NCBI GenBank assembly: GCA_017642895.1
Contig: JAEPON010000009.1
Coordinates: 62,001-126,000 of the forward strand
Length of the DNA stretch: 64,000 bases
Direction: 5' to 3'
DNA from: Roseitalea sp.
Lineage (GTDB): Bacteria; Pseudomonadota; Alphaproteobacteria; Rhizobiales; Rhizobiaceae
The position numbers were made by a program, and so were the translations under genes. Each line of letters starts with the position of its first letter. Position 1 is the stretch's first letter. The notes beneath the pieces were generated by a model. It ran no database searches and was not told the origin of the DNA. It saw only the letters and a list, made by a program, of their open reading frames with translations. Positions 6,156-20,175 of this stretch are shown here, piece after piece.

Positions 6156-6180
6156 GGAACGGCTTGTCGTTTGTCGCGTT
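6156..6180 (+). promoter_or_regulatory. EcfG promoter of the csbD-like gene
   Basis: GGAAC at 6156-6160 and CGTT at 6177-6180 with a 16-base spacer match the alphaproteobacterial EcfG consensus exactly. The start codon of the CsbD-like gene is 33 bases downstream. Confidence 0.85.
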
Positions 6181-6213
6181 CTGCTTTCGGACATCAACGC
6201 AAAGGAGTTTTCC

Positions 6214-6411
6214 ATGAATTGGGACCAGATCGAAGGCAAGTGGACCGAGTTCAAAGGCAAGGCGCGTCAAAAGTGGGGCGAATTGACCGATGACGAGTTG
6301 GATCAGGTTCAGGGCAATCGCGAGGAACTGGCCGGCAAGATCCAGGCGAAATACGGCAAGACCCGCGAAGAAGCCAAGCGCGAAATCGACGAATGGGCCA
6401 ACTCGGTCTGA
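6214..6411 (+). CDS. CsbD family stress protein
   Basis: A 65-residue hydrophilic protein with the CsbD pattern: MNWDQIEGKW, KGKARQKWGELTDDELD and QVQGNREELAGKIQ. CsbD-like proteins are abundant general-stress proteins of unknown biochemical function. The ATG follows AAAGGAG at 6201-6207, and an exact EcfG promoter lies just upstream, so induction by the general stress response is strongly suggested. A terminator follows the stop, making this a monocistronic unit. Confidence 0.93.
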   Translation: MNWDQIEGKWTEFKGKARQKWGELTDDELDQVQGNREELAGKIQAKYGKTREEAKREIDEWANSV

Positions 6412-6435
6412 TTTCGCCACACAGGCCAAACAGGA

Positions 6436-6458
6436 AGCCGCCCTGGGGGCGGCTTTTT
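6436..6458 (+). terminator. rho-independent terminator after csbD-like gene
   Basis: A perfect 8-bp stem (AGCCGCCC at 6436-6443, GGGCGGCT at 6447-6454) with a 3-base loop, running into five T residues. Confidence 0.88.
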
Positions 6459-6493
6459 GTTGCGCAAACCACAAGGATGCAAGGCTGCCCAGA

Positions 6494-7789
6494 TCAGCCG
6501 GTGGTGTCATCGCGGCCCAGAATCGGTGCAAGCCGTTCTGTCAGGAAATCGCGGTCGGCATCCATCGGATCGGTCCGCTCGAACGAGGCCATCAACAGGT
6601 CTGCGTGATGCTCGAAGATCGGCTCGACCTCTTCGTCGGCAATGTCGTGCAACCGGATGAGCGCGTCGGCAATGTTCTGCAACATCAGGAGGTTGCCAGC
6701 CGCCGCGCGGCGTAGTGGATGAAACGCCGTGTTGACGATATCCTCGACGGTCAGGCCGGGAATGCTGACGCGGACGATGCCGTCCCTGTCGCAGATCAAG
6801 CGGTTGCGCAGCCCCTTGTAGACCGGTGTGACGAAGGCCGCGCTGAGCCGGTCAACGCAGGCGATCGCCGTGAACGTATCGTTGACGCCCGGCGACAGCG
6901 CGCGCAATGCGATTTCCAGCAGCACGCTGATCGCATATTCGATGTCATCGACCGATCCACGCACCGGGGCGAGCGTCACCGAACCGGCGAACGCATCTTC
7001 GATGGCCTCGCGCCGGTCGTCGCCGTCATCCCCGACGATCCCGGCCAGCGCCTGCCCTCGCAGGATGAAGGTTCCCGGCTTATCTGTGATCTCCACGCGC
7101 ACGTCGAACTGGTCGGCCAGGGCCGTCAGGCGCTTTTCGTCGATGCCGACAATATAGCCATTGTCGGCGGCGGTGATCTCGAACGCCGGCGCGTCGCCGC
7201 GATCAAACGACGTGTCCCGGAATTCGTCGTCATTGTCGGCGACGATGCCAGTCAGGCGCTCTTCCAGTTGGGCGGAAATGGCGGCGATCTCCTCGTCGAT
7301 CGTCACGCTGCGCGAGACGGTGTGGACAAAGAAGATCAACTGAAGCACAGCGATGACGGCGAGACAGAATGCGATGGCGATCGAGACGCCCGGCACCGAA
7401 TTCGGCCCTGTCTGGTGCAGGATCGTGAGCGAGAATAGGAACGTGCCGCCCAGCACGCCGGCGGTCACCTGATTGACCCGGTCGCCGGTGAACCGCCGCA
7501 GCAGTCGCGGCGCGATGTTGCCGGCGGCCAGCGTGAACACAACCAGCACCAGCGAATAGACAAGGCTGAGCGTGGTGATCGCCGCGCCGGCGATCGTCGA
7601 CAGGATCGTCACCGCCGTCTCATAGTCGGTCTGGAGGACGAGGTAGAGTTCGATTGCGTCGCTTTGCGCCAGCACCCGGTCCAGCCGCAGCGCGATGAAC
7701 GCGGTCGCCCACAGCGTCAGGGCCAGAGCGCCGGGCACGGTGATCAATCCCCGGACGCTGCCCAGTTGCCTCAATGCCCGTCCAATCAT
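6494..7789 (-). CDS. DUF2254 family membrane protein
   Basis: About 431 residues matching the DUF2254 family: two pairs of hydrophobic segments in the first 150 residues and a long soluble C-terminal part containing the SPGVNDTFTA stretch typical of the family. Function is unknown. The frame is open to 7831, but the minus-strand EcfG promoter has its -10 at 7815-7818, inside that extension. The start is therefore placed at ATG 7789, which has a CAGGAT ribosome binding site. Control by EcfG is expected from that promoter, which overlaps the one for the divergent gene at 7873. Confidence 0.88.
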   Translation of the reverse strand: MIGRALRQLGSVRGLITVPGALALTLWATAFIALRLDRVLAQSDAIELYLVLQTDYETAVTILSTIAGAAITTLSLVYSLVLVVFTLAAGNIAPRLLRRFTGDRVNQVTAGVLGGTFLFSLTILHQTGPNSVPGVSIAIAFCLAVIAVLQLIFFVHTVSRSVTIDEEIAAISAQLEERLTGIVADNDDEFRDTSFDRGDAPAFEITAADNGYIVGIDEKRLTALADQFDVRVEITDKPGTFILRGQALAGIVGDDGDDRREAIEDAFAGSVTLAPVRGSVDDIEYAISVLLEIALRALSPGVNDTFTAIACVDRLSAAFVTPVYKGLRNRLICDRDGIVRVSIPGLTVEDIVNTAFHPLRRAAAGNLLMLQNIADALIRLHDIADEEVEPIFEHHADLLMASFERTDPMDADRDFLTERLAPILGRDDTTG

Positions 7790-7814
7790 CGATCCTGCCA
7801 CCATGTGGCGCAAA

Positions 7815-7840
7815 AACGCGGGAACCCCCACCCCGGTTCC
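7815..7840 (-). promoter_or_regulatory. EcfG promoter of the DUF2254 gene
   Basis: On the minus strand GGAAC (7840-7836) and CGTT (7818-7815) are separated by 17 bases, an exact EcfG match. It overlaps almost completely with the plus-strand promoter at 7821-7846. Confidence 0.85.
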
Positions 7841-7846
7841 CGCGTT
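7821..7846 (+). promoter_or_regulatory. EcfG promoter of the 7873 gene
   Basis: GGAAC at 7821-7825 and CGTT at 7843-7846 with a 17-base spacer. With the opposing promoter it forms a palindrome spanning 7815-7846, so the two polymerase complexes would compete for the same DNA. Confidence 0.85.
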
Positions 7847-7872
7847 GCAAGTGTAAAGCCAGGAGACCTATC

Positions 7873-8178
7873 ATGACAGTGTTGAAGGACATGAACCAGT
7901 CGGACCGCAAACACACCAAGACCGGCTCCGGAGACGACGCCGAGAAGACAGCGCAGTCGATCTCCTCGCAGGACATCAGGGCCGTGGCGATTTCCGCCGA
8001 ACCGGTGGACGAGCGGCTCGCAGCGCTCAGGAGCATGAAGACGGAGCTCGAGGCACGCCTTTCGGCCGATCGCGGCAGCGATCTGGGTCCGCTGGTCGAT
8101 GAAGTCGACAATGCGATAGAGAACCTGTCGAGCGCAGGCGGCGAGGCCGGCGTGCGATCCGCCACGGCGGCCGATTGA
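7873..8178 (+). CDS. small hypothetical stress-regulon protein
   Basis: 101 residues, hydrophilic and mostly helical in appearance, with no recognised domain. It begins at ATG 7873 behind AGGAGA at 7861-7866. The exact EcfG promoter 27 bases upstream places it in the general stress regulon. The next gene starts 36 bases downstream, so the two probably form an operon. Function unknown. Confidence 0.65.
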   Translation: MTVLKDMNQSDRKHTKTGSGDDAEKTAQSISSQDIRAVAISAEPVDERLAALRSMKTELEARLSADRGSDLGPLVDEVDNAIENLSSAGGEAGVRSATAAD

Positions 8179-8214
8179 CCGGTCAACCGCTCCGACCCCA
8201 GGCGAGATACGGAT

Positions 8215-8484
8215 GTGAGCATGGTCTCCGGTCAAAGGCCATCGATCAAGGATGATGAGACCTATGAGGCGCTGCGCGACAAAGGCGCCTCCAAAGAAAA
8301 GGCGGCGCGTATCGCCAACGCACAGGCGGCCGACGACCATGACCCGTCCGCAAAGGGTGGGTCCGCCAAAGCCTATGAGGACTGGTCCAAAGCAGACCTT
8401 TACGATCGGGCGCGGGAACTGGATATCAAAGGCCGATCCTACATGTCCAAGGGCGAACTGATCGACGCCCTGCGCAATCACTGA
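8215..8484 (+). CDS. Rho-N/SAP-like domain small protein
   Basis: 89 residues. The N-terminal half (DDETYEALRDKGASKEKAA) is a motif common in small stress-related proteins of plasmid and rhizobial genomes. The C-terminal half (WSKADLYDRARELDIKGRS, then SKGELIDALR) matches the Rho termination factor N-terminal/SAP-like helix-extended-loop-helix, a nucleic-acid binding fold. Start is GTG 8215, or ATG 8221 two codons later. Probably the second gene of the EcfG-driven operon beginning at 7873. A DNA- or RNA-binding role is inferred from the fold only. Confidence 0.72.
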   Translation: MSMVSGQRPSIKDDETYEALRDKGASKEKAARIANAQAADDHDPSAKGGSAKAYEDWSKADLYDRARELDIKGRSYMSKGELIDALRNH

Positions 8485-8562
8485 CATCGCCAGAACTTGT
8501 CAACGCGGGCACACGAACCACTGCATGTGGGCGCACAGCTTTTGCGGCCGGCTTTCACCCCG

Positions 8563-9552
8563 TCAGCGAAATTCAGTATGGTTGACGGCCAGCCGGTAAC
8601 TAACCGCGTTTTGGTCAACATCGAGTTCAGCGTCGCCGTTCACCGCCGAGGGGACGACCCGCTTCAACACCGTCCGGCTGAACCCTTTTGCCATGTCGTC
8701 GTCAAAGGCGTGGTCGCGCCCGTCTTCTTCCTTCCAACGGATCTCGGCCACGGGTGTCGCGCCGGTTTGTCGAACGATGTCGCACGCGATGTGTATCGTA
8801 CCATCTGCATCGAGCAGTGCGCCGTTGATGAGTGCATCGGTCACCAGTTCGTGCAGCGCCAGACCGATATGGACGGCGGCCGTCGGCGAGAAGGTGGGAT
8901 CGTCGCCGGTGACCTCGATACGGCTTGCACCCAATGGCACGACATCGATCACCTGAAGCTTGACCAGTTCGCGAAACCGCGCACCGCGCCAGTCGCTGTC
9001 GGTCACGGCGTCCTGCGATTTGGCCAACGATTGAACCCTGCCGGTGAATGTCCGCACGAACCCATCAACCGATCGCGACGAGCGTGCGGTTTGGGAGGCA
9101 AGGCTCAGCACCATGGCCAACATGTTCTTGGACCGGTGCGCGACCTCCATCATCAGGTTCTTGAGCGTCTGTTCGCGAATTTTCTCCTCGGTGATATCCA
9201 CCGAAGAGCACAAAAAGCCCGATTGACGCCCCGTTTCATCGTAAGCGGGCCGAACGGTGACCTTCAGGAAGCAATCCTTGCCGTCGGCCGCGACCGACGC
9301 CAGCGTCTGCAACTCCAGGGTAACGGGCTGGCCGGTCCGGCTTGCATCTTCCTTGGCCCTGGCGAACGCCGAAGCGCTTGCGCCGTTGAAGACATCGTCG
9401 TCGCACAGGCCGACCTGATCCGTCCGCGCCCAAACCGACTGATGGTTTTCAAACCATGCGAACCGGCCATCGGCGCCCTGAAAGAAGATCGTGACCGGCG
9501 ACCCTTCCAGCGCGATGGCGAGACTGTTGTGGTCGGGGCGGCGATCGTTCAT
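8563..9552 (-). CDS. PAS-HWE family sensor histidine kinase
   Basis: A cytosolic kinase of about 329 residues. An N-terminal PAS domain (about 10-125, closing with SSVDITEEK) is followed by an HWE-type dimerisation/phosphoacceptor region (EVAHRSKNMLAMVLSLA) and an HATPase region (LALHELVTDALINGALL). HWE kinases are the usual phosphate donors to PhyR. Its location two genes from phyR makes it a candidate general-stress-response sensor. TTG 9564 lies inside the terminator of the upstream gene, so ATG 9552 is preferred. No membrane segments, so the signal is intracellular or a bound cofactor. Confidence 0.87.
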   Translation of the reverse strand: MNDRRPDHNSLAIALEGSPVTIFFQGADGRFAWFENHQSVWARTDQVGLCDDDVFNGASASAFARAKEDASRTGQPVTLELQTLASVAADGKDCFLKVTVRPAYDETGRQSGFLCSSVDITEEKIREQTLKNLMMEVAHRSKNMLAMVLSLASQTARSSRSVDGFVRTFTGRVQSLAKSQDAVTDSDWRGARFRELVKLQVIDVVPLGASRIEVTGDDPTFSPTAAVHIGLALHELVTDALINGALLDADGTIHIACDIVRQTGATPVAEIRWKEEDGRDHAFDDDMAKGFSRTVLKRVVPSAVNGDAELDVDQNAVSYRLAVNHTEFR

Positions 9553-9565
9553 GGAAAAGTCCAAC

Positions 9566-9593
9566 GAAAAAGGGCGGGCTCAAACCCGCCCTT
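9566..9593 (-). terminator. rho-independent terminator after the DUF1328 gene
   Basis: Read on the minus strand, AAGGGCGGG pairs with CCCGCCCTT around a six-base loop (stem arms 9585-9593 and 9570-9578), followed by T residues. It separates the DUF1328 gene from the kinase gene. Confidence 0.8.
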
Positions 9594-9600
9594 GATCAGT

Positions 9601-9768
9601 TTAGCTCGCCTTGCGCAGGAAGCGGAAGGCGAGGCTGACGACGAACAGCACCAGAAACAGGAAAAACAGAATCTGGGCGATACCGGCCGACGCGCCTGCC
9701 ACGCCACCGAAGCCGAGAACGCCGGCAATGAGAGCGATGACCAGAAAAGCGAGTGCCCAACCAAGCAT
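9601..9768 (-). CDS. DUF1328 family small membrane protein (YtjA-like)
   Basis: A 55-residue protein consisting of two hydrophobic helices ([20 protein letters not shown] and [13 protein letters not shown] regions) ending FRFLRKAS, which is the DUF1328 pattern. Such proteins are common in stress regulons; function is unknown. The start codon is preceded by a very strong AAGGAGG ribosome binding site, an exact EcfG promoter lies at 9829-9804, and a terminator follows, so it is a self-contained stress-induced unit. Confidence 0.92.
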
Positions 9769-9803
9769 GATGGTGATCCTCCTTTGTTGCAGATCAACCG
9801 CTT

Positions 9804-9829
9804 AACGGCCGACAATACCAATCGGTTCC
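9804..9829 (-). promoter_or_regulatory. EcfG promoter of the DUF1328 gene
   Basis: On the minus strand GGAAC (9829-9825) and CGTT (9807-9804) are separated by 17 bases, an exact consensus match 36 bases upstream of the start codon. Confidence 0.85.
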
Positions 9830-9850
9830 ATCATTGTGTCACACGGGAGC

Positions 9851-10645
9851 CTAGGCCGCCCTCCTTGACTGCTCGCCGAAAAACAGCGCCTGACTGATCA
9901 GCGCGGACACCATGGGCGGCTGGAACGGCTTTGTCACCAAATAGGCGGGCTCGGGCCGCTCGCCCGTCAGAAGGCGCTCGGGATAGGCGGTGATGAAGAT
10001 CACCGGAACCTCGACGGATCGCAATATCTCGTTGACGGCCTCAAGACCCGAACTGCCATCGGCGAGTTGGATGTCGGCCAGAACAATGCCCGGCCGATCT
10101 TTCTCGAACAGCGCCACCGCTTCGGTATGGGTGCGGGCAATGCCGGTGACCCGGTGTCCGAGATCCTCGACCATCGCCTCGACATCCATCGCAATCAGCG
10201 GCTCGTCCTCGATGATCAGAACGCTGGTCGCCACCTGTCCGGCAATGTCGCGGGCGGCCTGCTCCAGCAATTCGTCCGCGTCCGCGGTCTCGATGCCGAG
10301 TATCTGTGCCGTTTCCTCCGGGGAGAACCCCTCGACGGCGGTCAGCAGAAACGCCTGGCGGGGCATGGGCGCGATGGCCTGCAAGTTCCGTTCGCCACGG
10401 GCCGGCTCGGCCGGTGCATCCGGGTCCGCCTTCAGGTTGACATCAAGCGAAGACCACAAATCAAGGAACGATTTGTACAGTGCGAGCTTTACATCACTGA
10501 GATCGGAAAAAATGGCCCGATCGGCCACCAAGGCCTCCAGCAGAGCGGCGACGTAAGTGTCGCCGGCGCGCTGGGAACCGGTCAGCGCACGCGCGAAGCG
10601 GCGCAGAAGGGGAACATGGGGTGAAATCTGAGAGGCTAGCGACAT
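9851..10645 (-). CDS. phyR: PhyR, general stress response anti-anti-sigma response regulator
   Basis: 264 residues from ATG 10645. The N-terminal half is an ECF sigma-like domain (sigma-2/sigma-4 mimic, ending around EETAQILGIETADADELL). The C-terminal half is a receiver domain with LIIEDEPLIAMD, phosphoacceptor Asp in VLADIQLADG, and the Lys of LVTKPF. Phosphorylated PhyR binds NepR and releases EcfG. The frame is open to 10801, but this adds a non-PhyR leader that runs past the promoter, so it is rejected. An exact EcfG promoter lies at 10711-10687, giving positive feedback, and it is divergent from nepR-ecfG. Confidence 0.97.
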   Translation of the reverse strand: MSLASQISPHVPLLRRFARALTGSQRAGDTYVAALLEALVADRAIFSDLSDVKLALYKSFLDLWSSLDVNLKADPDAPAEPARGERNLQAIAPMPRQAFLLTAVEGFSPEETAQILGIETADADELLEQAARDIAGQVATSVLIIEDEPLIAMDVEAMVEDLGHRVTGIARTHTEAVALFEKDRPGIVLADIQLADGSSGLEAVNEILRSVEVPVIFITAYPERLLTGERPEPAYLVTKPFQPPMVSALISQALFFGEQSRRAA

Positions 10646-10686
10646 GTGTACTCCCTGCCGGCTCACGTGAAGGTGGACAAGCTGGA

Positions 10687-10711
10687 AACGCGAACGCAAG
10701 AAAGCGGTTCC
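10687..10711 (-). promoter_or_regulatory. EcfG promoter of phyR
   Basis: Minus-strand GGAAC (10711-10707) and CGTT (10690-10687), 16-base spacer, exact consensus. It lies back to back with the nepR promoter, the two -35 elements being 10 bases apart. Confidence 0.9.
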
Positions 10712-10721
10712 ATTTTTTTCC

Positions 10722-10746
10722 GGAACTTTTTTGCCGGAGCGGCGTT
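10722..10746 (+). promoter_or_regulatory. EcfG promoter of nepR-ecfG
   Basis: GGAAC at 10722-10726 and CGTT at 10743-10746, 16-base spacer, exact consensus, 33 bases upstream of the nepR start. Confidence 0.9.
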
Positions 10747-10779
10747 TCGGCGTAAATGGACCTGGGAAAGCGATAATCA

Positions 10780-10971
10780 ATGGGCTGGGTAATGCCAACA
10801 TCGAAAGACGAAAAAGCCCGACCGCTCAACGAGATGGCTGTGCGGCAGATCGGGAAGAAACTGCGCGAATCGTTTGACGAGGTCGCCAAGCAGCCGGTCC
10901 CCGACCGGTTCGCGGCCCTCCTGGACGAACTTGAAAAGTCCGAAGGGCAGAAGCAGGACAAGGATCAATGA
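10780..10971 (+). CDS. nepR: NepR anti-sigma factor
   Basis: A 63-residue protein with the NepR core: IGKKLRESFDEV, then PVPDRFAALLDELE, the two helices that hold EcfG and, under stress, PhyR. Length is typical. Start ATG 10780 has GGGAAAG upstream; a second in-frame ATG at 10792 is possible. Its stop overlaps the ecfG start (ATGA at 10968), so anti-sigma and sigma factor are translationally coupled, and the pair shares an EcfG promoter. Confidence 0.95.
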   Translation: MGWVMPTSKDEKARPLNEMAVRQIGKKLRESFDEVAKQPVPDRFAALLDELEKSEGQKQDKDQ

Positions 10972-11516
10972 CGGCTCCTGCCGACTTCAAGACCGATCTG
11001 CTGGGCGCGATCCCCAATCTGCGCGCATTCGCCCTGTCGTTGACCGGAGCGGGTGACCGAGCGGACGATCTCGTGCAGGAAACGCTGGTCAAGGCCTGGC
11101 ACAAGCAGGCAAGCTTTCAGCCGGGCACCAACATCAAAGCGTGGCTCTTCACAATCCTGCGCAACGAGTTCTATTCGCAGATGCGCAAGAAGGGGCGTGA
11201 GGTGTCCGACGCCGAAGGCACGCTGACCGAGGCAATGGCGACCCACCCGGACCAGATGGGCAAGCTCGATCTGGCCGACATGCAGCGGGCGTTGCAGATG
11301 CTGCCCGACGATCAGCGCGAGGCGATCATCCTGATCGGCGCATCGGGCATGAGCTACGAGGAAGCGGCAAAGGTCTGCGGCTGCGCGACAGGCACCGTCA
11401 AAAGCCGTGTCTCGCGCGCGCGAACACGTCTGGCTGAAATTCTAGACGTGGAGGATTCGAACGAATACGGGCCCGACTCCGTCGCCACCCAAGTCTTGGC
11501 ACGGGCGTTGGGCTAG
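10968..11516 (+). CDS. ecfG: EcfG, general stress response ECF sigma factor
   Basis: 182 residues with sigma-2 (about 12-85: DDLVQETLVKAWHK, WLFTILRNEFYSQMRK) and sigma-4 (about 105-160: LPDDQREAIILIGASGMSYEEAA, then GTVKSRVSRAR). Sequence and the nepR/phyR context identify it as the EcfG-type factor that reads GGAAC/CGTT promoters. Its stop codon TAG is part of a CTAG that forms the left flank of the MITE-like element. The response regulator beyond the element ends in the other CTAG copy, so the genes were probably convergent and overlapping at their stops before insertion. Confidence 0.96.
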   Translation: MTAPADFKTDLLGAIPNLRAFALSLTGAGDRADDLVQETLVKAWHKQASFQPGTNIKAWLFTILRNEFYSQMRKKGREVSDAEGTLTEAMATHPDQMGKLDLADMQRALQMLPDDQREAIILIGASGMSYEEAAKVCGCATGTVKSRVSRARTRLAEILDVEDSNEYGPDSVATQVLARALG

Positions 11517-11665
11517 GGTCAGGACCCATTGATCCGGTTGAAATGGCGGTCGAGATGGCAAGCAATACACTCAAAAGCACGAAGAGCGGGGCCCGTCCCC
11601 CGGTCGATCGCTTTGACGCGGCAGGGCGCAACCATATCGACCTGATTAATGGGTTCTGACCCTAG
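11513..11665. mobile_element. 145-bp MITE-like element with CTAG target duplication
   Basis: The core 11517-11661 is bounded by 18-base inverted ends, GGTCAGGACCCATTGATC (11517-11534) and the complement of GATTAATGGGTTCTGACC (11644-11661), identical at 16 of 18 positions. CTAG flanks both sides (11513-11516 and 11662-11665) and looks like a 4-base target duplication, of the YTAR type used by IS5-group elements. No transposase fits in it. On the minus strand it holds an open frame of 38 codons (11635-11519) with C5 and C23xxC26, of unknown meaning. Element family is an inference. Confidence 0.65.
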
Positions 11666-12108
11666 GTCGGCACCTGTTTCGAATTCGACGGGCCTTTCAA
11701 CGCATTTTGAAAGGCCAGGCACACCTCTTCGTCGCCAAACGGCTTTTGGAGAATAGCATCGGCCGACGAAAACAGGTCGTCTTCTTCCAACTGGCTGTCG
11801 GTGGTCATCAGGATCAGCTTGCACGGCGATCCCCGGACGAACTGCGCGATCCGGCGTTTTTCGTCATTGGTCGACCGGTAGTCCACCACGCAGACATCGG
11901 GCAGATGCGCGCAACGATCTGCAAGTTCCATCGCCTCGTGTGCCCGCAGGACTCGCGTCGTCCGGGCGCCCAGTTCCTGGGCGACCTGCTCGACGCTGAC
12001 GGCGATGAGCATCTCATCTTCGATGATGAGCACGCTTTTTCGGTCCAACACCGATGCGATTCCATGATGCACGTTCACAATGGCCAACTTGTACCGGCAT
12101 GGAACCAA
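11662..12108 (-). CDS. stand-alone receiver-domain response regulator
   Basis: A single receiver domain with no output domain: KSVLIIEDEMLIAVSVEQ (acidic pair), the phosphoacceptor Asp in VCVVDYRS, and the conserved Lys in LQKPFGDEE. Such proteins act as phosphate relays or bind partners directly; beside phyR and two HWE kinases it could serve the stress phosphorelay. The upstream end is uncertain: 12108 is a TTG without a clear ribosome binding site, and several internal GTG/TTG codons before residue 25 are possible. Its stop is the TAG of the CTAG bordering the mobile element. Confidence 0.78.
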   Translation of the reverse strand: MVPCRYKLAIVNVHHGIASVLDRKSVLIIEDEMLIAVSVEQVAQELGARTTRVLRAHEAMELADRCAHLPDVCVVDYRSTNDEKRRIAQFVRGSPCKLILMTTDSQLEEDDLFSSADAILQKPFGDEEVCLAFQNALKGPSNSKQVPT

Positions 12109-12158
12109 TCGGGTCTTTTAACTTTGACATATCTGATCAACAATCGAACGGGGAGACC

Positions 12159-12926
12159 ATGAGCACCAAGCCCGATACATCGGCGCCAACCCGCACGCGG
12201 AAGATCCCATGTGAGGATTGTCCATTGCGTCTTAGCGGCCGGTTTCGCGATTTCACCGACCACGAGCTGTCCTTCGTCTCGGGCTTCAAACGTGGCGAAC
12301 TGACCGCCGAGGCCGGATCGACGATTTTCGTCGAGGGCAGCCACAGCCCGCACCTTTACACGGTGATTTCGGGATGGGGCTTTCGCTACAAGATGCTCCA
12401 GGACGGGCGCCGGCAGATCCTGAACTATGTGCTGCCCGGCGATCTGGTCGGCCTGCAGGGCTCCTTGCTGGGCGAGATGGAACACTCGATCGAGTGCCTG
12501 TCGGACATGGTGCTGTGCATGTTCGAGCGCGATCGTTTGGGCGATCTTTACCAATCCAGTCCGACGCTGGCATTCGACATAACGTGGATTGCGGCACGCG
12601 AGGAGCAGATCCTCGACGAGCATCTGCTCAGCGTCGGCCAACGCACTGCGCTCGCGCGCGCGGCCTACCTGTTGGCATTCCTGCACGACCGCGCAAAAAC
12701 CGTCGGGCTGTTCGGCGATGCGCCGGAGATAGCGCCTCTGACGCAACAGCATGTCGCCGACACGCTCGGCCTGTCGCTGGTTCACACCAACAAGACACTG
12801 CGCAAGTTGCAGGAGCAGAAGACCATTTCCTGGAAGGATGCGGGATTTCGGATCACCAACATCGCCAAACTGCGCGAGATCGCCGTCTGGGAGGGTCTGC
12901 CGGAGAGCCAACGGCCGTTCATCTGA
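12159..12926 (+). CDS. Crp/Fnr-family transcriptional regulator
   Basis: 255 residues from ATG 12159 (GGGGAG upstream). It has a cyclic-nucleotide-binding-like beta barrel at about 30-145 (EAGSTIFVEGSHSPHLYTVISG, LPGDLVGLQG) and a Crp-type helix-turn-helix near 200-225 (QHVADTLGLSLVHTNKTLRKL). The N-terminal CEDCPLR resembles the start of FNR/FixK-like proteins, but the full four-Cys FNR cluster pattern is absent. It therefore probably senses something other than oxygen through an iron-sulfur cluster. Targets are unknown. Confidence 0.88.
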   Translation: MSTKPDTSAPTRTRKIPCEDCPLRLSGRFRDFTDHELSFVSGFKRGELTAEAGSTIFVEGSHSPHLYTVISGWGFRYKMLQDGRRQILNYVLPGDLVGLQGSLLGEMEHSIECLSDMVLCMFERDRLGDLYQSSPTLAFDITWIAAREEQILDEHLLSVGQRTALARAAYLLAFLHDRAKTVGLFGDAPEIAPLTQQHVADTLGLSLVHTNKTLRKLQEQKTISWKDAGFRITNIAKLREIAVWEGLPESQRPFI

Positions 12927-12979
12927 CCACGATCATGACGCAACGGGGCGGAGCCCGCGTTCAACGATCGGAAAATGCA

Positions 12980-13011
12980 AAACGCCCGGCGAGCAAATGC
13001 TCGCCGGGCGG
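12980..13011 (-). terminator. terminator of the dps operon
   Basis: A long perfect hairpin (CGCCCGGCGAGC with its complement around a four-base loop), followed on the minus strand by TTTT. It sits downstream of the 13033-13230 gene. Confidence 0.82.
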
Positions 13012-13032
13012 TTGGTTGACGTCAACGCTGCC

Positions 13033-13230
13033 TCAAACCGCGGCGGCACGACCGCCCTTGGGTCCGAAAATGAACCACAGGATCAAGCCGATCACTGGCA
13101 GGACGAGAATGAGGACGGTCCAGAGGGCCTTGGCCCCGGTGGACGCGCTCGATTGAAAGGTGCTGTAAATCGCCCAAACCATGGCGATCAGCAGGATCAG
13201 GCCGAGAAAGCCGCCAACTTCAATTCCCAT
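13033..13230 (-). CDS. PLDc_N-domain small membrane protein
   Basis: 65 residues with two hydrophobic helices (GGFLGLILLIAMVWAIYS and ALWTVLILVLPVIGLILWFIFGP regions), ending in the WFIFGPK pattern of the phospholipase D N-terminal (cardiolipin synthase anchor) family. Only the membrane anchor is present. It follows the dps gene by six bases on the same strand and ends at a terminator, so it is probably the last gene of the EcfG-driven dps operon. Function unknown. Confidence 0.88.
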   Translation of the reverse strand: MGIEVGGFLGLILLIAMVWAIYSTFQSSASTGAKALWTVLILVLPVIGLILWFIFGPKGGRAAAV

Positions 13231-13236
13231 TGTCTG

Positions 13237-13749
13237 TTACTCCTTGTCCGTGATCAGCGACCGCCACATCCACACGACCTGCTCGTGATAGGTCATGCGC
13301 CCGACCAGAAGGTCGTGTGTGACGAAATCGCGTTTGTCTTCAGCCATGTCGGCCGCATCGCGCATCTTTCGGATTGCCGCCTCGTGGTCCTGGATCAGGT
13401 CGGCGACCATGTCGTGCGCCGACCGGGCCGACGCATCCATCGAGACCACGGCCTCTTTCGGGCCGGCTGCATCGGCAATCGGTGCCTTGTGGCCCAGTGC
13501 CCGGATGCGCTCGGCAATCTCATCGGCCGCCTTGAACAGGTTGGTATATTGTTCCTCGGTCATCTCATGGATGGCGTGGAACATCGGCCCGACCACGTTC
13601 CAGTGATAGATGTGCGATTTGATGACCAGATAATAAGTGTCGGTCAGAATCGCCGACAATGCTTGGGCGATCTCCTCGCGCGCGCCATCATCGATGCCGG
13701 TCGATACGTTTTCATTGGCCAGTTCCGGCTTCAGGGCAGCCTGTGCCAT
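13237..13749 (-). CDS. dps: Dps family DNA-binding/ferritin-like protein
   Basis: 170 residues of the Dps type: ILTDTYYLVIKSHIYHWNVVG and HAIHEMTEEQYTNLFKAADEIAERIRALG carry the His/Asp/Glu ligands of the inter-subunit ferroxidase site. Dps oligomers store iron and protect DNA from peroxide. A GGAGG site precedes the ATG. A short frame (13869-13771) and then an exact EcfG promoter (13952-13928) lie upstream, so stress induction is expected. Cotranscribed with the PLDc_N gene. Confidence 0.93.
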   Translation of the reverse strand: MAQAALKPELANENVSTGIDDGAREEIAQALSAILTDTYYLVIKSHIYHWNVVGPMFHAIHEMTEEQYTNLFKAADEIAERIRALGHKAPIADAAGPKEAVVSMDASARSAHDMVADLIQDHEAAIRKMRDAADMAEDKRDFVTHDLLVGRMTYHEQVVWMWRSLITDKE

Positions 13750-13770
13750 CGGATACCTCCAGTATTCGGA

Positions 13771-13869
13771 TCAGTTTTCGGGTTGCACTTCAACGCCGGG
13801 CTCGCCGATGTCGGCGGTCACCGCGTCACGATCAAGAAGGTCGAGAAAGACTGCGCCCTTGCCGTGCAT
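13771..13869 (-). CDS. possible 32-residue leader protein upstream of dps
   Basis: A small frame between the EcfG promoter and dps, encoding an acidic peptide beginning MHGKGAVFLDLLDRDAV and ending VEVQPEN, with stop about 20 bases before the dps start. A strong GGAGG lies upstream but is placed better for an overlapping 20-codon frame starting ATGATG; a TTG five codons before the ATG is another possible start. The peptide looks protein-like, but this may simply be the dps leader. Confidence 0.3.
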   Translation of the reverse strand: MHGKGAVFLDLLDRDAVTADIGEPGVEVQPEN

Positions 13870-13927
13870 GTTGGGATTTGACAACGGTCATCATACCTCC
13901 TTCGTCCGACGTCACGGACAAAGGACA

Positions 13928-13952
13928 AACGCGGGACGCCGCCGACCGTTCC
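13928..13952 (-). promoter_or_regulatory. EcfG promoter of the dps operon
   Basis: Minus-strand GGAAC (13952-13948) and CGTT (13931-13928), 16-base spacer, exact consensus. It starts nine bases past the stop of the phospholipase D-like gene. Confidence 0.83.
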
Positions 13953-13960
13953 CCAATTCA

Positions 13961-15592
13961 TCAGACCATCTGTTCGGGAATGAAGAGATGACGCTTGGCA
14001 AAGCGCCGTGTCTTGTGCAGCGGAAACGGCACCACGCCGGTTCCCTTGGCCCGCGCGCCCGCCGCGCTGCGCTCCAGAGCGTGGTGTCGCCAGCGTGCAA
14101 AGGTACCGGCCGGATCGGTCGCCGGCTCCAGCGTGGCCGCCTCGCCGCCCAGATGTGCCCGCCAAAGCTGCTCGCGGAGCGTACCGGCGAAATCGGCGTC
14201 GCGGGCGACGATGCCGGCTTCGACATCCCATTGCATGGAGCGTCCGTTCAGATTGGCAGATGACACGATCGCGGCGGCATCGTCGGCGACCGCGACCTTG
14301 GAATGCACATAGACCATGGACTTGTTGTGAAGGGCATCGCGCTCGATCGCCTCCTCGCGGGCAAGATCGTTGGTCAGGCTGAACGCGGCGAAACGATCGG
14401 GAAACAGCCGCGTCAAACGGTTCAGCGCACGCATTTGCAGCCATTCGCCGTACCGGTGAACGCCCGAATCGTCTCCTTCATAGGCGATGATGTCCGGCGC
14501 GCCAGGCAACAGCACGATGGCATGGAGATCTGGCCGCTTGCCGAGCGCCGCGACCAGGCCGTCCCGAGTGGCTGACGAGCGAAAGAACTGGGTTTCCAGA
14601 TAGACAAAGTGCCGGGCTTGCTCAAAGAGCTCCAGATGCGCGGCTTCAAGGTCTCGAACATCGGCACGCGGGCCGTATCGCAGCGGATGCCAGCCGGGTT
14701 TGGACATGGTGGTTGCCACCTCGACGGCACCGGCGTCATGTTGCTGCGCGCCATCATGCCCGTGCGCGCCTGCCGGTGCGGCAGGAACGAAGCGGATCGA
14801 TTGAGCCGGGTGCGCGCGCATGAACGCCGGAGCGTGCGAGTGCCCCTGGGTTTGAACCCGTGTCCAGCAGGTCTGGAAATGCGCCGCAAGACGTGCCACG
14901 GCCGGCCCCACGATCTCGACGCTGACATCGTGCCAGGTTTCGGGGGCCGAGCGCCTGTGATCAGGATCGTCATAGCGCCGTTCATCGATGTCCAATCCGC
15001 CAAGGATGGCACGCTCGCCATCCGCGATCAGGAACTTCTGATGCAGTGTTTGGGTGAAGTTGCGGCGCGGGGGCCAGAACGCGGCGTTGGCGCCTTCCGC
15101 CAGACCCGGCGGAAGGGTCCGTCCCTTGGCTTGGAACGCACGCACCGCGTGGCGCTGCTGTCTACGGGCCATCGGCCACACCAGCGTTCGCAGCAGCGCG
15201 CCCGATTGGCCGCCCGGATGGGCGACCAGCATATGCAGATTGTCTTTCAGATCGTCGTCGAGGTCGGCCACCGCGTTTTCCAGATGCCGGATCCGCTCCC
15301 AGACCGCGGCGTGCATGTCGGGTGCGCCCACGGGGTCAAAATCATTGAGCAGGAAGCGGACCCGAACGCCGCGCGACAGAGCATCGGCCAGCAAGGCGCC
15401 CCAATCGGTCAATCGCCGGTCATGCGCGTCCACCGATCGGGTCTTGGTTCGGGGCGAAAAGATGTGCAGCGCCAGATCGAGCCTTTGCCGGGCGGCCAGG
15501 ACCAGCGCCTCCATGGCCGGAAACGCCTGCTCGGCAGTAATCAACGGCACAAGCCGGCCACTGTGATCGGACACGGTATCCTCGCTTTGCAA
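13961..15592 (-). CDS. phospholipase D-like protein (two HKD motifs)
   Basis: About 543 residues with two PLD catalytic motifs: H184xK186xxxxD191 (HQKFLIADGERAILGGLD) and a second near residue 435 (HSKVAVADDAAAIVSSANLNGRS). This is the bacterial phospholipase D/transphosphatidylase layout, acting on phospholipid head groups; substrate and direction are not readable. No signal peptide is evident, so it is probably cytosolic or membrane-associated. Start 15592 is TTG; a GTG at 15574 with GAGG upstream is an alternative. Confidence 0.87.
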   Translation of the reverse strand: MQSEDTVSDHSGRLVPLITAEQAFPAMEALVLAARQRLDLALHIFSPRTKTRSVDAHDRRLTDWGALLADALSRGVRVRFLLNDFDPVGAPDMHAAVWERIRHLENAVADLDDDLKDNLHMLVAHPGGQSGALLRTLVWPMARRQQRHAVRAFQAKGRTLPPGLAEGANAAFWPPRRNFTQTLHQKFLIADGERAILGGLDIDERRYDDPDHRRSAPETWHDVSVEIVGPAVARLAAHFQTCWTRVQTQGHSHAPAFMRAHPAQSIRFVPAAPAGAHGHDGAQQHDAGAVEVATTMSKPGWHPLRYGPRADVRDLEAAHLELFEQARHFVYLETQFFRSSATRDGLVAALGKRPDLHAIVLLPGAPDIIAYEGDDSGVHRYGEWLQMRALNRLTRLFPDRFAAFSLTNDLAREEAIERDALHNKSMVYVHSKVAVADDAAAIVSSANLNGRSMQWDVEAGIVARDADFAGTLREQLWRAHLGGEAATLEPATDPAGTFARWRHHALERSAAGARAKGTGVVPFPLHKTRRFAKRHLFIPEQMV

Positions 15593-15622
15593 TTGCCTCC
15601 AACCAAACTAGGCTGAACCCAT

Positions 15623-16765
15623 ATGGTTCCCAACGGGCGATTGCGCCGGGAACAGGATGACGGAAACAGTCGCTTGACCGACAACAAATCCGATGATGGC
15701 GGCCGGAAGGGTGACGCACCGGTTCCGCCGTCAAGTGACATCGAGCATGTATCGACGGCTTTGGAAAACCTGTCCATCGCGCGGCGGCGTGCGCTGGCGC
15801 TGCACTATTCGGGCATTGCGACATGGGCCTGGGACGTAAGAACCGACGAAGTCGACGCCGATGGCGCTTTCCGTGACCTGTTCGGACTGTCTGGCGGTGT
15901 CGCGTTGACGTCGGCGCTGATCGTCGATCTGATCCACCCCGAGGATCGGCCACGGGTCAGCGAGGCGCTCGAGCGAACCATCAGCACGGGCGAACCCTAT
16001 GAAGAGCGTTTCAGGATCTCGACCGGTGACGGTGATATCCGCTGGCTGCGCGGGATCGGCGAGGCCCATCAGTGCGATGAAGACGGCAAGGCGACGGTTA
16101 TTGTCGGCCTCAACATGGATGCATCTGAAGAAAAGGAGACCGAAGCGCGGCTTATGGCGATCGTCGGCGAGATGCGACACCGCATCAAGAATTCGCTCGC
16201 CATGGTCAATTCGCTTGCTGCCGCAACGGCGCGGGAAAGCGGCGCCATTGACGACTTTGTCGAGAAGTTTCGCGGCCGGATTGATGCCTTGGCCGCAGCC
16301 CAGCGCGCCATCGGAACGACGGGCGACACGCATCTTGTTGACCTGCGCGCGGCGATTGAGGGTGCAATGGCGCCGTTTGTTGCAACAGCCGACTGGCAGC
16401 GTCGTATCACGGTCGATATCGCTGACACCGCCGTGGCGCCATCGCTTGGCCAGGCGCTGGCGCTGACGATCTACGAACTGGCTACCAATGCGATCAAGTA
16501 TGGCGCGCTCTTGTATGATGACGGCACCATCGCGCTCAAATGCTCTTTTTCAGACAACCAACAGGCGCTGGTCATCAGTTGGCGCGAGGCGCACGATGGT
16601 GCGCAGACCGATGTGCGCGCGACCGGCACCGGTTTCGGAACGAGACTGATCGACCGGCTGATCGCGGCCGAAAATGGTGTGATCGACCGACGTCATCTTA
16701 AATCCGGCTATATGGTCGAGCTCACCTTTCCTCTGCCAGCATCTTCGCAACAAGCGCTGCTTTAG
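15623..16765 (+). CDS. PAS-HWE family sensor histidine kinase
   Basis: 380 residues. A PAS fold at about 55-175 (YSGIATWAWDVRTDEV, then VGLNMDASEEKETEA) is followed by an HWE phosphoacceptor region (VGEMRHRIKNSLAMVNSLAAAT) and an ATPase region (LTIYELATNAIKYGALL, TGTGFGTRLID). It is soluble. This is the second HWE kinase near phyR and another candidate stress-response sensor. The first 40 residues are low in structure, so the ATG 15623 start may be early. The stop overlaps that of the convergent gene 16762-17085 by four bases. Confidence 0.87.
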   Translation: MVPNGRLRREQDDGNSRLTDNKSDDGGRKGDAPVPPSSDIEHVSTALENLSIARRRALALHYSGIATWAWDVRTDEVDADGAFRDLFGLSGGVALTSALIVDLIHPEDRPRVSEALERTISTGEPYEERFRISTGDGDIRWLRGIGEAHQCDEDGKATVIVGLNMDASEEKETEARLMAIVGEMRHRIKNSLAMVNSLAAATARESGAIDDFVEKFRGRIDALAAAQRAIGTTGDTHLVDLRAAIEGAMAPFVATADWQRRITVDIADTAVAPSLGQALALTIYELATNAIKYGALLYDDGTIALKCSFSDNQQALVISWREAHDGAQTDVRATGTGFGTRLIDRLIAAENGVIDRRHLKSGYMVELTFPLPASSQQALL

Positions 16766-17085
16766 CCCGACTGCTCACCGATCTGTTCGGTTCCGTCGGC
16801 GGCCACCATGTCGGCGCTGCCGCCAAGCATCGGCTCGACAACCAATTCGCCGTTGGCCGCGAAGAACCAACTGAATGTCAGATCGGATTCCAAGGCCGTT
16901 TGGACAAGCGGAACGCATGTGCCGACCGTTGTCGGATAGTCTTGCACGCGCCTGGCAATCTCCTCGAAATCGGCATGGCAGGCCGCTTCCGTCTGGTAGA
17001 AATCCACCGGCGAAGCCTGCGGACGGCAAACGTCGAGATTGTGTCCGCAACCCATCAGAAACAGAGCGAAAACTGCATTTTCCAT
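16762..17085 (-). CDS. small hypothetical stress-regulon protein, exported or anchored
   Basis: 107 residues with a short hydrophobic N-terminus (MENAVFALFLMGCG), then a region with several cysteines (CGHNLDVCR, ACHADFE, GTCVPL) and an acidic C-terminus. The family is not recognised. AAGGAG precedes the ATG, and an exact EcfG promoter lies 24 bases upstream, which makes the gene credible and places it in the stress regulon. Confidence 0.68.
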   Translation of the reverse strand: MENAVFALFLMGCGHNLDVCRPQASPVDFYQTEAACHADFEEIARRVQDYPTTVGTCVPLVQTALESDLTFSWFFAANGELVVEPMLGGSADMVAADGTEQIGEQSG

Positions 17086-17108
17086 CGCACATCTCCTTTG
17101 CGATGAAA

Positions 17109-17134
17109 AACGGCACCCCCCGCCGTACGGTTCC
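17109..17134 (-). promoter_or_regulatory. EcfG promoter of the 16762-17085 gene
   Basis: Minus-strand GGAAC (17134-17130) and CGTT (17112-17109), 17-base spacer, exact consensus. It is divergent from the PRC-barrel promoter, 24 bases away. Confidence 0.85.
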
Positions 17135-17157
17135 GAAAACGATCGGAAAAAAAGCTG

Positions 17158-17182
17158 GGAACGCTCGCGTATCTGGCGCGTT
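17158..17182 (+). promoter_or_regulatory. EcfG promoter of the PRC-barrel gene
   Basis: GGAAC at 17158-17162 and CGTT at 17179-17182, 16-base spacer, exact consensus, 82 bases upstream of the start codon. Confidence 0.84.
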
Positions 17183-17264: not shown

Positions 17265-18173
17265 ATGCTGAAACGCTTGATGACCACCACGACCGCACTG
17301 GTCGCGCTCGGCGGCGCCACGGCTTTTGCCGCGGAAGCGGGCACGGACGAGACGCGCGGCGTTTTCGACCGTGAGATGGCTGCCGATGCAGCCACCTTTT
17401 ACGACGCCGATTCGGCGCACATGCTCGCCACCAACCTGATCGGTTCGTACATCTACAACGGCTCCGGCGACGAGGCCGAAAGCGTTGGCGATGTCAACGA
17501 TGTCGTCTTTTCGACCGAAGGCGAGGTGATGGCGGTGATTGCCGGTGTCGGCGGCTTTCTGGGCATCGGCGAAAAGGAAGTCGCCATCTCGATCGACCGA
17601 CTGAATTGGCGTACCGGCCCGGACGGCGAGCGCTGGCTGGTCGGCGATCTGACCAGTGAACAGCTCAACGAAGCGCCGGGGTTCGACCGTACGGTGATCA
17701 CCAATCGCGAGCAGGCGATGATGACCGACGACCGCAAGCCCGCGGACGAAACCATGGCGGCGGCTGATGCCAATACCGAAGCCGACACCATGACCGGAAC
17801 GGAAACGGCGGCTGACGGTGATCGCACCTATGTGCCGCTCATCGAGACCTCTTTCGAGGCGGACCGTCTGATCGGCATGGATGTTCATGGCGCCAACGAC
17901 GAAGATGTCGGCGAAGTCGGAGACGTGCTGATCGGCGGCGACGGCGAAGTGCAGGCCGTGATCATCGATGTGGGCGGCTTCCTCGGCCTCGGCGAGAAGC
18001 CGGTTGCCGTATCGCTCGACAACATGATGATCGCCCGGGCCGACGATGCGTTCGACTGGTCGGTGATCAAGACCAGCCTGACTGCCGAGCAGCTCGAACA
18101 GCACCAGGCGTTCTCTCGTTCCGAGTATGAATCGGATCCCGACGCAGTGATCCTCGTCACTCCGGCAATGTAA
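17265..18173 (+). CDS. exported protein with two PRC-barrel domains
   Basis: 302 residues with a signal peptide (MLKRLMTTTTALVALGGATAFA). Two PRC-barrel repeats follow: about residues 55-125 (GDVNDVVFSTEGEVMAVIAGVGGFLGIGEKE) and about 205-270 (GDVLIGGDGEVQAVIIDVGGFLGLGEKP). The linker is acidic and Thr/Ala rich. Such secreted PRC-barrel proteins are common in rhizobial stress regulons; their role is unknown. The ATG has AAGGGAG upstream; an earlier in-frame ATG at 17241 is rejected. EcfG promoter upstream, terminator downstream. Confidence 0.88.
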   Translation: MLKRLMTTTTALVALGGATAFAAEAGTDETRGVFDREMAADAATFYDADSAHMLATNLIGSYIYNGSGDEAESVGDVNDVVFSTEGEVMAVIAGVGGFLGIGEKEVAISIDRLNWRTGPDGERWLVGDLTSEQLNEAPGFDRTVITNREQAMMTDDRKPADETMAAADANTEADTMTGTETAADGDRTYVPLIETSFEADRLIGMDVHGANDEDVGEVGDVLIGGDGEVQAVIIDVGGFLGLGEKPVAVSLDNMMIARADDAFDWSVIKTSLTAEQLEQHQAFSRSEYESDPDAVILVTPAM

Positions 18174-19375: not shown

Positions 19376-19722
19376 CCGCAACCGCTACCAAATCGACAGG
19401 CCGAAGCAAGACACGCAACGGAGCATCGACGGCAAAAACCGACAATCTGGGCGATGAGATCGCCGCATTGCGCGAAGAGGTGGCCGCCGTGACCGACCGT
19501 TTGAGCAAAGTGGCTGGCGCCGGCGTGCGCGAAGCCAAGCAGCGCGGCGACGAATCCGCCATTGCGCTGCAGGAGACGAGTAATCAGCTCATCGACGACC
19601 TGACCCGTCAGCTCAACGACATCGAGGTCAAGGCCGGGACGGCGGTTCGCAAGAATCCCGTTCAGGCGCTGGGCATCGCCGCCGGCATCGGCTTCCTCGC
19701 GGCCATCCTGATGCGCAGGTAA
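19372..19722 (+). CDS. DUF883 (ElaB/YqjD-like) protein
   Basis: 116 residues: a Ser/Thr/Lys-rich N-terminus, a long amphipathic helix (about 30-90) and a C-terminal hydrophobic anchor (NPVQALGIAAGIGFLAAIL, then MRR). This is the ElaB/YqjD tail-anchored pattern; the E. coli homologues bind ribosomes at the inner membrane in stationary phase. Translationally coupled to the AI-2E gene and two bases before the next gene. Confidence 0.85.
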   Translation: MTATATKSTGRSKTRNGASTAKTDNLGDEIAALREEVAAVTDRLSKVAGAGVREAKQRGDESAIALQETSNQLIDDLTRQLNDIEVKAGTAVRKNPVQALGIAAGIGFLAAILMRR

Positions 19723-19723
19723 C

Positions 19724-20149: not shown

Positions 20150-20175
20150 ACCAATAGCATACATTGGAGGGACCA

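Follow-up and report, generated by a model that had tools for sequence, protein, structure and literature searches.

Genes and promoter-like sites around phyR and ecfG

Within the window (the whole 64,000-nucleotide stretch of DNA that was analyzed), the gene phyR (9851-10645, minus strand) lies divergent to the anti-sigma factor gene nepR (10780-10971, plus strand) and the sigma factor gene ecfG (10968-11516, plus strand). The predicted PhyR protein combines a sigma-like domain with a receiver (PhyR_sigma2, PhyR_sigma-like and Response_reg in Pfam) and scores above the cut-off for PRK09191, the PhyR family of NCBIfam. NepR matches PF18557 with 52.8 bits (cut-off 25.7), and scores below the cut-off of the NCBIfam model "anti-sigma T factor NepR" (36.9 vs. 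100). EcfG has Sigma70_r2 and r4_2 domains by Pfam and exceeds the cut-off of the NCBIfam model PRK12547, which we take to be EcfG-linked. Homologs of ecfG were detected in 116 of 121 genomes of the family (E ≤ 0.001), and the best matches are in the canonical range.

Both transcription units of this switch are preceded by an exact match to GGAAC-N16/17-CGTT with a spacer of 16 (here called an EcfG-type site): one at 10687-10711 on the minus strand, 42 nt before phyR, and one at 10722-10746 on the plus strand, 34 nt before nepR-ecfG. Each is present in four of four congeners. The original prediction placed nine such sites within positions 6156-17182, and all nine are there; it missed a tenth, at 19325-19349 on the plus strand. 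The gene names that it proposed agree with Pfam and NCBIfam.

On the plus strand, a site with a spacer of 16 (6156-6180) occurs 34 nt before a csbD-like gene (6214-6411; CsbD, PF05532), and is exact in all three congeners that have csbD. A gene for a small DUF1328 membrane protein (9601-9768, minus strand) has a site with a spacer of 17 (9804-9829, minus strand) at 36 nt, exact in all four congeners. The dps unit, on the minus strand, has its site (13928-13952, spacer 16; retained in four of four congeners) 44 nt before the first ORF, at 13771-13884. This 37-amino-acid ORF was considered as a new small protein and rejected, as comparison with the four congeners, in which it is intact (53 to 64 amino acids), indicates a remnant. 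Thus, the dps unit does bear a site, as was claimed, but it opens with a broken small ORF. The ORF is followed by the ferritin-like gene dps (13237-13749, named by Pfam and NCBIfam) and, as last gene, one for a PLDc_N small membrane protein (13033-13230) with a terminator-like hairpin at 13010-12983.

The gene at 16762-17085 (minus strand; hereafter the 16762 gene) encodes a 107-amino-acid protein with four cysteines and no match in Pfam or NCBIfam. Its site (17109-17134, minus strand, spacer 17) is 24 nt away, and is exact in three of four congeners with one mismatch in the fourth. AlphaFold2, given four sequences, yielded a best model with a mean pLDDT of 68.2 (the other four models ranged from 34 to 55), for which Foldseek returned no match in the PDB at E ≤ 0.001. 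A further site (17158-17182, plus strand, spacer 16) is located 83 nt before a gene that a family search identified as coding for a double PRC-barrel protein (17265-18173, plus strand). The tenth site falls within the last part of the AI-2E gene and precedes a DUF883-like gene by 23 nt, a distance also found in congeners G151 and G153. This gene (19372-19722) probably forms a single plus-strand unit (19372-21087) with a holin-like gene (19724-20149) and a gene at 20176-21087 that is presumably MscS-like; the Pfam scores of the DUF883-like and holin-like genes are weakly below the cut-offs. The two remaining sites overlap within a palindrome, described below.

In reports on EcfG1-PhyR-TcrY of Rhizobium etli and RpoE2-RsiA1-RsiB1 of Sinorhizobium meliloti (PMC3892343, PMC3616915), the same switch genes appear in the same divergent layout and are autoregulated, and the R. 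etli promoter, GGAAC-N16-CGTT, equals the window motif. The window differs from these loci, as described there, in having ten exact sites in 13 kb, in the csbD, DUF2254, dps-unit, PRC and DUF883 genes that adjoin the switch, in a nested palindromic promoter, and in an HWE kinase with degenerate ATP-binding motifs. Among the neighboring gene types, csbD and mscS are direct targets of the general stress response in Sphingopyxis (PMC7083833), and reports on Sphingomonas (PMC6599016) and S. meliloti (PMC6180224) count PRC-barrel genes among those that depend on EcfG/RpoE2.

Site density, conservation and the predicted regulon

Dinucleotide shuffles of the window gave a mean of 1.16 matches to GGAAC-N16/17-CGTT and a maximum of four, compared with ten in the real sequence. 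The motif is not enriched genome-wide, because the 4.33-Mb genome holds 62 matches versus 98 for the reversed control pattern. This imbalance favors the view that a number of sites in the cluster match by chance in a GC-rich genome, and that the true local regulon consists of phyR, nepR-ecfG and one or two neighbors. However, ten of the 62 matches fall in 13.2 kb, and at least nine sites per 11 kb would have a Poisson probability of 3e-14 at the rate taken from outside the cluster; an equal density in other parts of the genome, which would have contradicted the original prediction, was not found in the genome-wide scan. Moreover, all ten cluster sites end 23 to 83 nt ahead of a start codon on the same strand. 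By comparison, 36 of the 52 exact matches elsewhere lie inside predicted genes and 16 outside them, and 11 of the 52 come within 150 nt of a start, against an expectation of about four (7.9% of strand-positions). Genes for this comparison were predicted with a home-made caller trained against the other five frames; its start codons are approximate. It chose some internal starts (nepR, Crp and HWE2); measured from its nepR start, the site distance is 88 nt instead of 34 nt. Outside the cluster, seven exact matches are both intergenic and no more than 150 nt from a start, so that the cluster does not make up the entire predicted regulon.

Most sites are retained at orthologous genes in the four congeners, even where the islands have been rearranged and gene order is shuffled, which also argues against chance matches. 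Conservation is incomplete, with inexact sites in some congeners, which again favors chance matches: an exact site is kept at three of five copies of the 7873 gene (7873-8178), two of four copies of the DUF883 gene and three of four copies of the 16762 gene. Inexact sites in the window itself include a one-mismatch GGAAC-N16-CTTT at 34 nt from a Crp-like gene, which is not conserved in any of the four congeners, and a one-mismatch GGAAC-N-AGTT at the PLD gene (14 nt in the window, 34 nt in G151 and G153, with another variant in G099); neither was assigned.

Sixty ecfG loci from the family contain 310 sites compared with 22 matches to the control pattern; three of the loci lack a site. These loci, two of which are shorter than 20 kb, were drawn from 114 genomes with an EcfG match (G000 and G099 excluded), and mostly represent the best-scoring matches rather than a random sample. 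A site directly precedes PhyR at 36 of 60 loci and NepR at 27 of 50. DUF1328 (42 of 45 loci with a homolog), DUF883, PRC and the 16762 gene (22 of 31) also recur with a site; homologs were called leniently (at E ≤ 1e-3, in a search of few proteins), and the 31 homologs of the 16762 gene alone were inspected singly. In contrast, no homolog of DUF2254, the 7873 gene or dps in the 60 loci (two, one and six, respectively) has a site directly upstream, an observation that favors chance matches at these genes. Of the 310 sites, 39 are more than 200 nt from any predicted gene, and 47 precede genes that lack a homolog in the window. Overall, we consider it very improbable that chance explains several sites of the cluster.

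Clustering around ecfG is thus a trait of the wider family and is not special to this genome. A search of titles and abstract openings, mostly outside the subscription literature, found no report of such family-wide clustering, which is weak evidence of novelty. Because promoters cluster around ecfG in many family members, a site near ecfG can place genes of unknown function in the regulon as candidates. The proposal that regulators and many putative targets are physically clustered is borne out by the sequence. Assignment of individual genes to the stress regulon held to different degrees: the sites of DUF1328, the 16762 gene, PRC, DUF883 and csbD, conserved in the genus and family, support their placement in the predicted regulon, and those of DUF2254, the 7873 gene and the dps unit have support within the genus only. 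DUF1328, DUF883 and the four-cysteine family of the 16762 gene are therefore testable candidates for stress-regulon membership.

These data lead us to conclude, with a probability of roughly 0.9, that the locus is the known PhyR-NepR-EcfG general stress response system of a Roseitalea/Oceaniradius-like alphaproteobacterium, whose ten predicted EcfG promoters would drive the switch and its neighbors. By analogy with characterized members of this family, stress would lead to phosphorylation of PhyR, which would then bind NepR and thereby free EcfG. EcfG would guide RNA polymerase to GGAAC-N16/17-CGTT promoters, and the promoters of phyR and nepR-ecfG would provide feedback. The driven neighbors would be csbD, DUF2254, the 7873 gene, DUF1328, the dps unit, the 16762 gene, PRC, and DUF883 with the genes that follow it; a stress function of these targets is likewise presumed. 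The same motif was tied to EcfG1 by experiment in R. etli (PMC3892343). EcfG may not be the only sigma factor on which these promoters depend, because S. meliloti RpoE6 and similar related ECF factors share part of the promoters (PMC6180224). In summary, a stress switch sits amid about a dozen genes with its predicted promoter, and this arrangement recurs in related bacteria.

A palindrome with two nested EcfG-type sites

Between DUF2254 and the 7873 gene lies a perfect palindrome of 32 bp with 11-bp arms (7815-7846) that contains two nested, divergent EcfG-type sites, each with a spacer of 17. The minus-strand site (7815-7840) is 26 nt before the DUF2254 membrane protein gene (6494-7804, minus strand), whose start must be at about 7789 or 7804, because the GTG at 7831 falls inside the promoter. 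The plus-strand site (7821-7846) is 27 nt before the 7873 gene (plus strand), which encodes a 101-amino-acid protein that has no match in Pfam or NCBIfam and has homologs in the four congeners. The second gene of the 7873 unit is probably a DUF7218/Rho_N-like gene (8215-8484, plus strand), which has no site of its own.

The element is a perfect mirror image and might act as a promoter in both directions. Its CGTT boxes are separate and 24 bp apart, and the GGAAC boxes are nested, so each 11-bp arm would supply the -35 box in one direction and the -10 box in the other. In Escherichia coli, bidirectional promoters likewise consist of symmetrical DNA to which polymerase binds in two orientations (Warman et al. 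2026, PMC12825309), and therefore one binding should exclude the other. Those promoters share a symmetrical -10 element, and their starts are commonly 10, 18 or 23 bp apart. Unlike them, the window palindrome has no shared symmetrical -10 element; it has separate nested -35 and -10 boxes, would use an ECF sigma factor, and has predicted starts an estimated 45 bp apart. We give even odds to the hypothesis that the palindrome forms a single two-way EcfG promoter with a geometry that was absent from the other genomes searched. A single EcfG-polymerase would then fire DUF2254 or the 7873 gene but never both together, and two stress outputs would be coupled through one site.

The inverted repeat is perfect and has a T-rich tail on the minus strand, so it might instead serve as the operator of a repressor or form a terminator/attenuator hairpin, and a terminator scan does list terminator-like hits at these positions. 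However, both arms agree exactly with a -35/-10 spacing of 17, and the genes on both sides start 26 to 27 nt away. Also, since the palindrome sits between divergent genes, EcfG transcripts would begin beyond the hairpin. Finally, a 7873 homolog in G099 is preceded by an exact site of the ordinary kind and lacks the palindrome. We therefore regard an operator or terminator as distinctly unlikely.

The palindrome was found in only three congeneric genomes: that of the window, G151 and G153. It is absent from 150 other family genomes, G099 included, and from 396 other genomes of the order, some of which were also in the family sample; G151 and G153 belonged to neither sample, and G152 was searched within its 40-kb stretch. 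The putative two-way promoter seems to have originated in this genus. No report of such a palindrome was found among the titles and abstract openings that were searched, which mostly lay outside subscription papers. If its predicted function is correct, the palindrome is a compact natural case for studying polymerase competition on a symmetrical alternative-sigma promoter.

HWE kinases and a lone receiver

Two HWE kinases and a lone receiver were proposed to complete the signaling path, a role that is uncertain. Neither HWE2, a PAS_3-HWE kinase (15623-16765, plus strand) that keeps the H-, N- and G-boxes, nor the lone receiver (11662-12078, minus strand) has an EcfG-type site with zero or one mismatch. 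Single-domain receivers such as SdrG and MrrA also occur in a general stress response setting (PMC5964349), and the window receiver differs from them, as described there, in having neither a FATGUY motif, PFXFATG(G/Y), nor an EcfG-type site. The corresponding residues are MTTD in the window and three congeners and VTTD in G152.

HWE1, a PAS_4-HWE kinase (8563-9564, minus strand), lies 37 nt behind DUF1328 on the same strand, and could accordingly be an active, EcfG-induced sensor kinase with positive feedback onto PhyR. In other species, HWE/HisKA2 kinases provide input to the pathway (PMC5964349). In the family, a site directly precedes 15 of 46 HWE1-like genes in the vicinity of ecfG, although the HWE, REC and Crp homologs counted there may be generic family members. 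This reading is weakened by a hairpin and by motif changes. A terminator-like hairpin (9593-9570) separates HWE1 from DUF1328, and hairpins occur at the same junction in G151, G153 and G099. In addition, HWE1 looks degenerate: in the window, G151 and G153 the H-box histidine is kept, but aspartate replaces the N-box asparagine and the G-box has changed. The DUF1328-linked copy in G099 has arginine in the N-box, and a second G099 copy and the G152 homolog keep asparagine. We therefore consider an active, EcfG-induced kinase in such a feedback loop unlikely.

A phosphotransferase or phosphatase role like that of the kinase-derived PhyT might suit HWE1 better. The PhyT/PhyP protein of Sphingomonas melonis (PMC5898713) is, like HWE1, encoded at the phyR locus; it has a conserved histidine and a degenerate catalytic domain, which suggests it as a putative model for the role of HWE1. 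PhyT is membrane-anchored, whereas HWE1 has a PAS_4 domain.

Predicted EcfG-type promoters in the window and genome

An exact pattern scan of the window for GGAAC-N16/17-CGTT, the predicted EcfG-type promoter, returned ten matches, whereas shuffled windows averaged 1.16 and never exceeded 4. Nine matches fall within 6156-17182, where the original prediction had placed nine exact sites proposed to define a compact general stress regulon (PhyR-NepR-EcfG). That observation is correct, although one further site, at 19325-19349, was not listed. The system itself is already known, the pattern is wider than was claimed, and one promoter is unusual. All ten sites are followed by a start codon on the same strand, at a distance of 23-83 nt.

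The window corresponds to positions 62001-126000 of contig 15. The whole 4.33-Mb genome contains 62 matches and 98 matches to a control, the same pattern read backwards. Because the control is more common, the motif is mostly background genome-wide. The exception is the cluster, in which ten of the 62 matches are concentrated in 13.2 kb, a clear excess over background (Poisson P = 3e-14 for at least nine sites in 11 kb, given the rate in the genome outside the cluster). Among the 52 exact sites elsewhere, 36 lie within predicted genes and 16 do not; 11 are at most 150 nt from a start, against an expectation of about four. Of these 11, seven lie between genes, and a few additional EcfG promoters therefore probably exist elsewhere in the genome. 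One stretch of contig 30 (394100-401000) carries two exact sites, one located 32 nt before a gene that we take to resemble those for diacylglycerol kinases, and is possibly a second small stress cluster. A PhyR-like receiver gene is present between these two sites.

Matches to Pfam and NCBIfam in the window include regulators and signaling proteins (PhyR, NepR, an ECF sigma factor, two HWE kinases, a weak receiver, and a Crp-like regulator), as well as CsbD, DUF2254, DUF7218, DUF1328, PLDc_N, a ferritin-like Dps, a PLD protein, a double PRC-barrel protein, and an AI-2E transporter. DUF883 and holin matches fall just or well under Pfam cut-offs. Two genes named by coordinate, the 7873 gene (7873-8178, plus strand) and the 16762 gene (16762-17085, minus strand), encode proteins with no family match in either database.

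Conservation of sites in the genus and family

A scan of genome contigs identified three close loci (a Phyllobacteriaceae MAG, Oceaniradius stylonematis StC1, and Roseitalea sp. MMSF_3546) and one remote match. Stretches of 35-40 kb from four congeners were compared, with one-mismatch sites also scanned and tblastn applied in G151. PhyR identity to the window is 93% in G151, 91% in G153, 75% in G099, and 73% in G152; exact sites number 9, 11, 14, and 11, respectively, and control matches 0, 2, 0, and 1.

All four congeners have exact sites upstream of DUF1328, phyR, nepR-ecfG, and the dps unit; such sites are also found before csbD in three of three, DUF2254 in two of two, and the PRC-barrel gene in one of one (a remote 29% match in G099 was left out of this count). 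The 16762 gene has an exact site in three of four congeners and a one-mismatch site in G099, DUF883 has exact sites in two of four and one mismatch in the remaining two, and the 7873 gene has exact sites upstream of three of five copies. The 23-nt distance of the tenth site is the same in G151 and G153. Gene order is shuffled in G099 and G152, yet most sites remain beside their genes. A one-mismatch site, GGAAC-N16-CTTT at 12101-12125, lies 34 nt upstream of the Crp-like gene and is kept in none of the four congeners.

In the nepR promoter of the window, a run of six T's directly follows GGAAC (10727-10732). The run recurs in G151, G153, and the phyR-linked nepR of G099, and is absent from the nepR-ecfG promoters of G152 and G099. 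Besides the nepR-ecfG pair, both G099 (L092/L093) and G152 (L096/L097) carry a second NepR-like gene divergent to phyR.

The surroundings of ecfG in 60 family genomes (1.185 Mb) contain 310 sites versus 22 control matches, and 252 of these sites are at most 150 nt before a predicted start. At least one site is present in 57 of the 60 loci, and at least five within 11.1 kb in 33. In 15 of these genomes, picked among the denser loci, whole-genome counts are 68-141 for sites versus 17-170 for controls, so the ecfG neighborhood is far denser in sites than the rest of the genome.

Within the 60 loci, direct upstream sites occur at homologs of DUF1328 (42/45), the 16762 gene (22/31), PhyR (36/60), NepR (27/50), DUF883 (31/52), PRC (25/42), AI-2E (13/20), and CsbD (5/5), and at HWE1-like (15/46), Crp-like (6/24), and lone receiver (1/15) genes. 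None was found in these loci at homologs of DUF2254 (n = 2), the 7873 gene (n = 1), dps (n = 6), or DUF7218 (n = 2), or at HWE2-like genes (n = 26). Given these counts, site clustering around ecfG is a family trait. The proposed assignment of neighboring genes to the stress regulon is supported by sequence comparison in both genus and family for DUF1328 and the 16762 family, the predicted recurrent members, and in this genus only for DUF2254, the 7873 gene, and dps. In R. etli, the ecfG1-phyR region is termed highly conserved by its authors, who mapped an EcfG1-dependent RNA there (PMC3892343).

A nested palindrome at 7815-7846

At 7815-7846, two divergent sites overlap within an inverted repeat whose 11-bp arms match perfectly, such that each arm combines one promoter's -35 box with the complement of the other promoter's -10 box. 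The arms in G153 and G151 are identical to those of the window (22/22), and the 10-bp center has one difference in G153 and four in G151. Identical arms around a varying center are suggestive rather than decisive, because the flanks are likewise well conserved in these close species. The palindrome was not found in 150 other genomes of the family or 396 others of the order. Two other overlapping pairs among the 60 family loci have another geometry, one explained by the self-complementarity of the boxes. In bidirectional promoters of E. coli, as described in PMC12825309, both directions share a single -10 element, and the spacing between their starts is commonly 10, 18, or 23 bp; the predicted palindrome promoter therefore lies outside that class. 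Mutual exclusion at this putative two-way promoter should nonetheless work as it does in E. coli.

Signaling genes and the dps unit

The kinase HWE2 (15623-16765, plus strand) keeps the H-, N-, and G-boxes, which are functional motifs of HWE kinases. HWE1 (8563-9564, minus strand) keeps the His, but its G-box is altered. In place of the N-box Asn, the window's HWE1 and those of G151 and G153 have Asp, and the G099 copy linked to DUF1328 has Arg. The Asn is retained by G152's HWE1 homolog, by the second copy in G099, and by 14 sequences from the family. The Asp and the change in the G-box, shared by three species of the genus, suggest that HWE1 has lost kinase activity. A terminator-like hairpin (9593-9570) separates DUF1328 from HWE1, and hairpins are also present there in G151, G153, and G099 (with a weak T-run in G099), so HWE1 probably receives readthrough at most. 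PhyT of Sphingomonas, described as a kinase-derived phosphotransferase encoded at the phyR locus (PMC5898713), provides a functional precedent for HWE1 rather than a proven relation. The lone receiver (11662-12078, minus strand) keeps its phosphorylation residues, lacks in alignment the SdrG/MrrA motif as presented in PMC5964349, and has no EcfG-type site detected upstream.

The first ORF after the dps-unit promoter (13771-13884, minus strand) is the counterpart of a 53-64-aa protein in the four congeners that, as judged by eye, has one apparent membrane segment. Alignment to G153 and G151 reveals a 59-nt gap that eliminates this segment and shifts the frame, and the ORF is thus a deletion remnant. 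Behind it, dps and PLDc_N are intact, and a terminator-like hairpin ends the unit.
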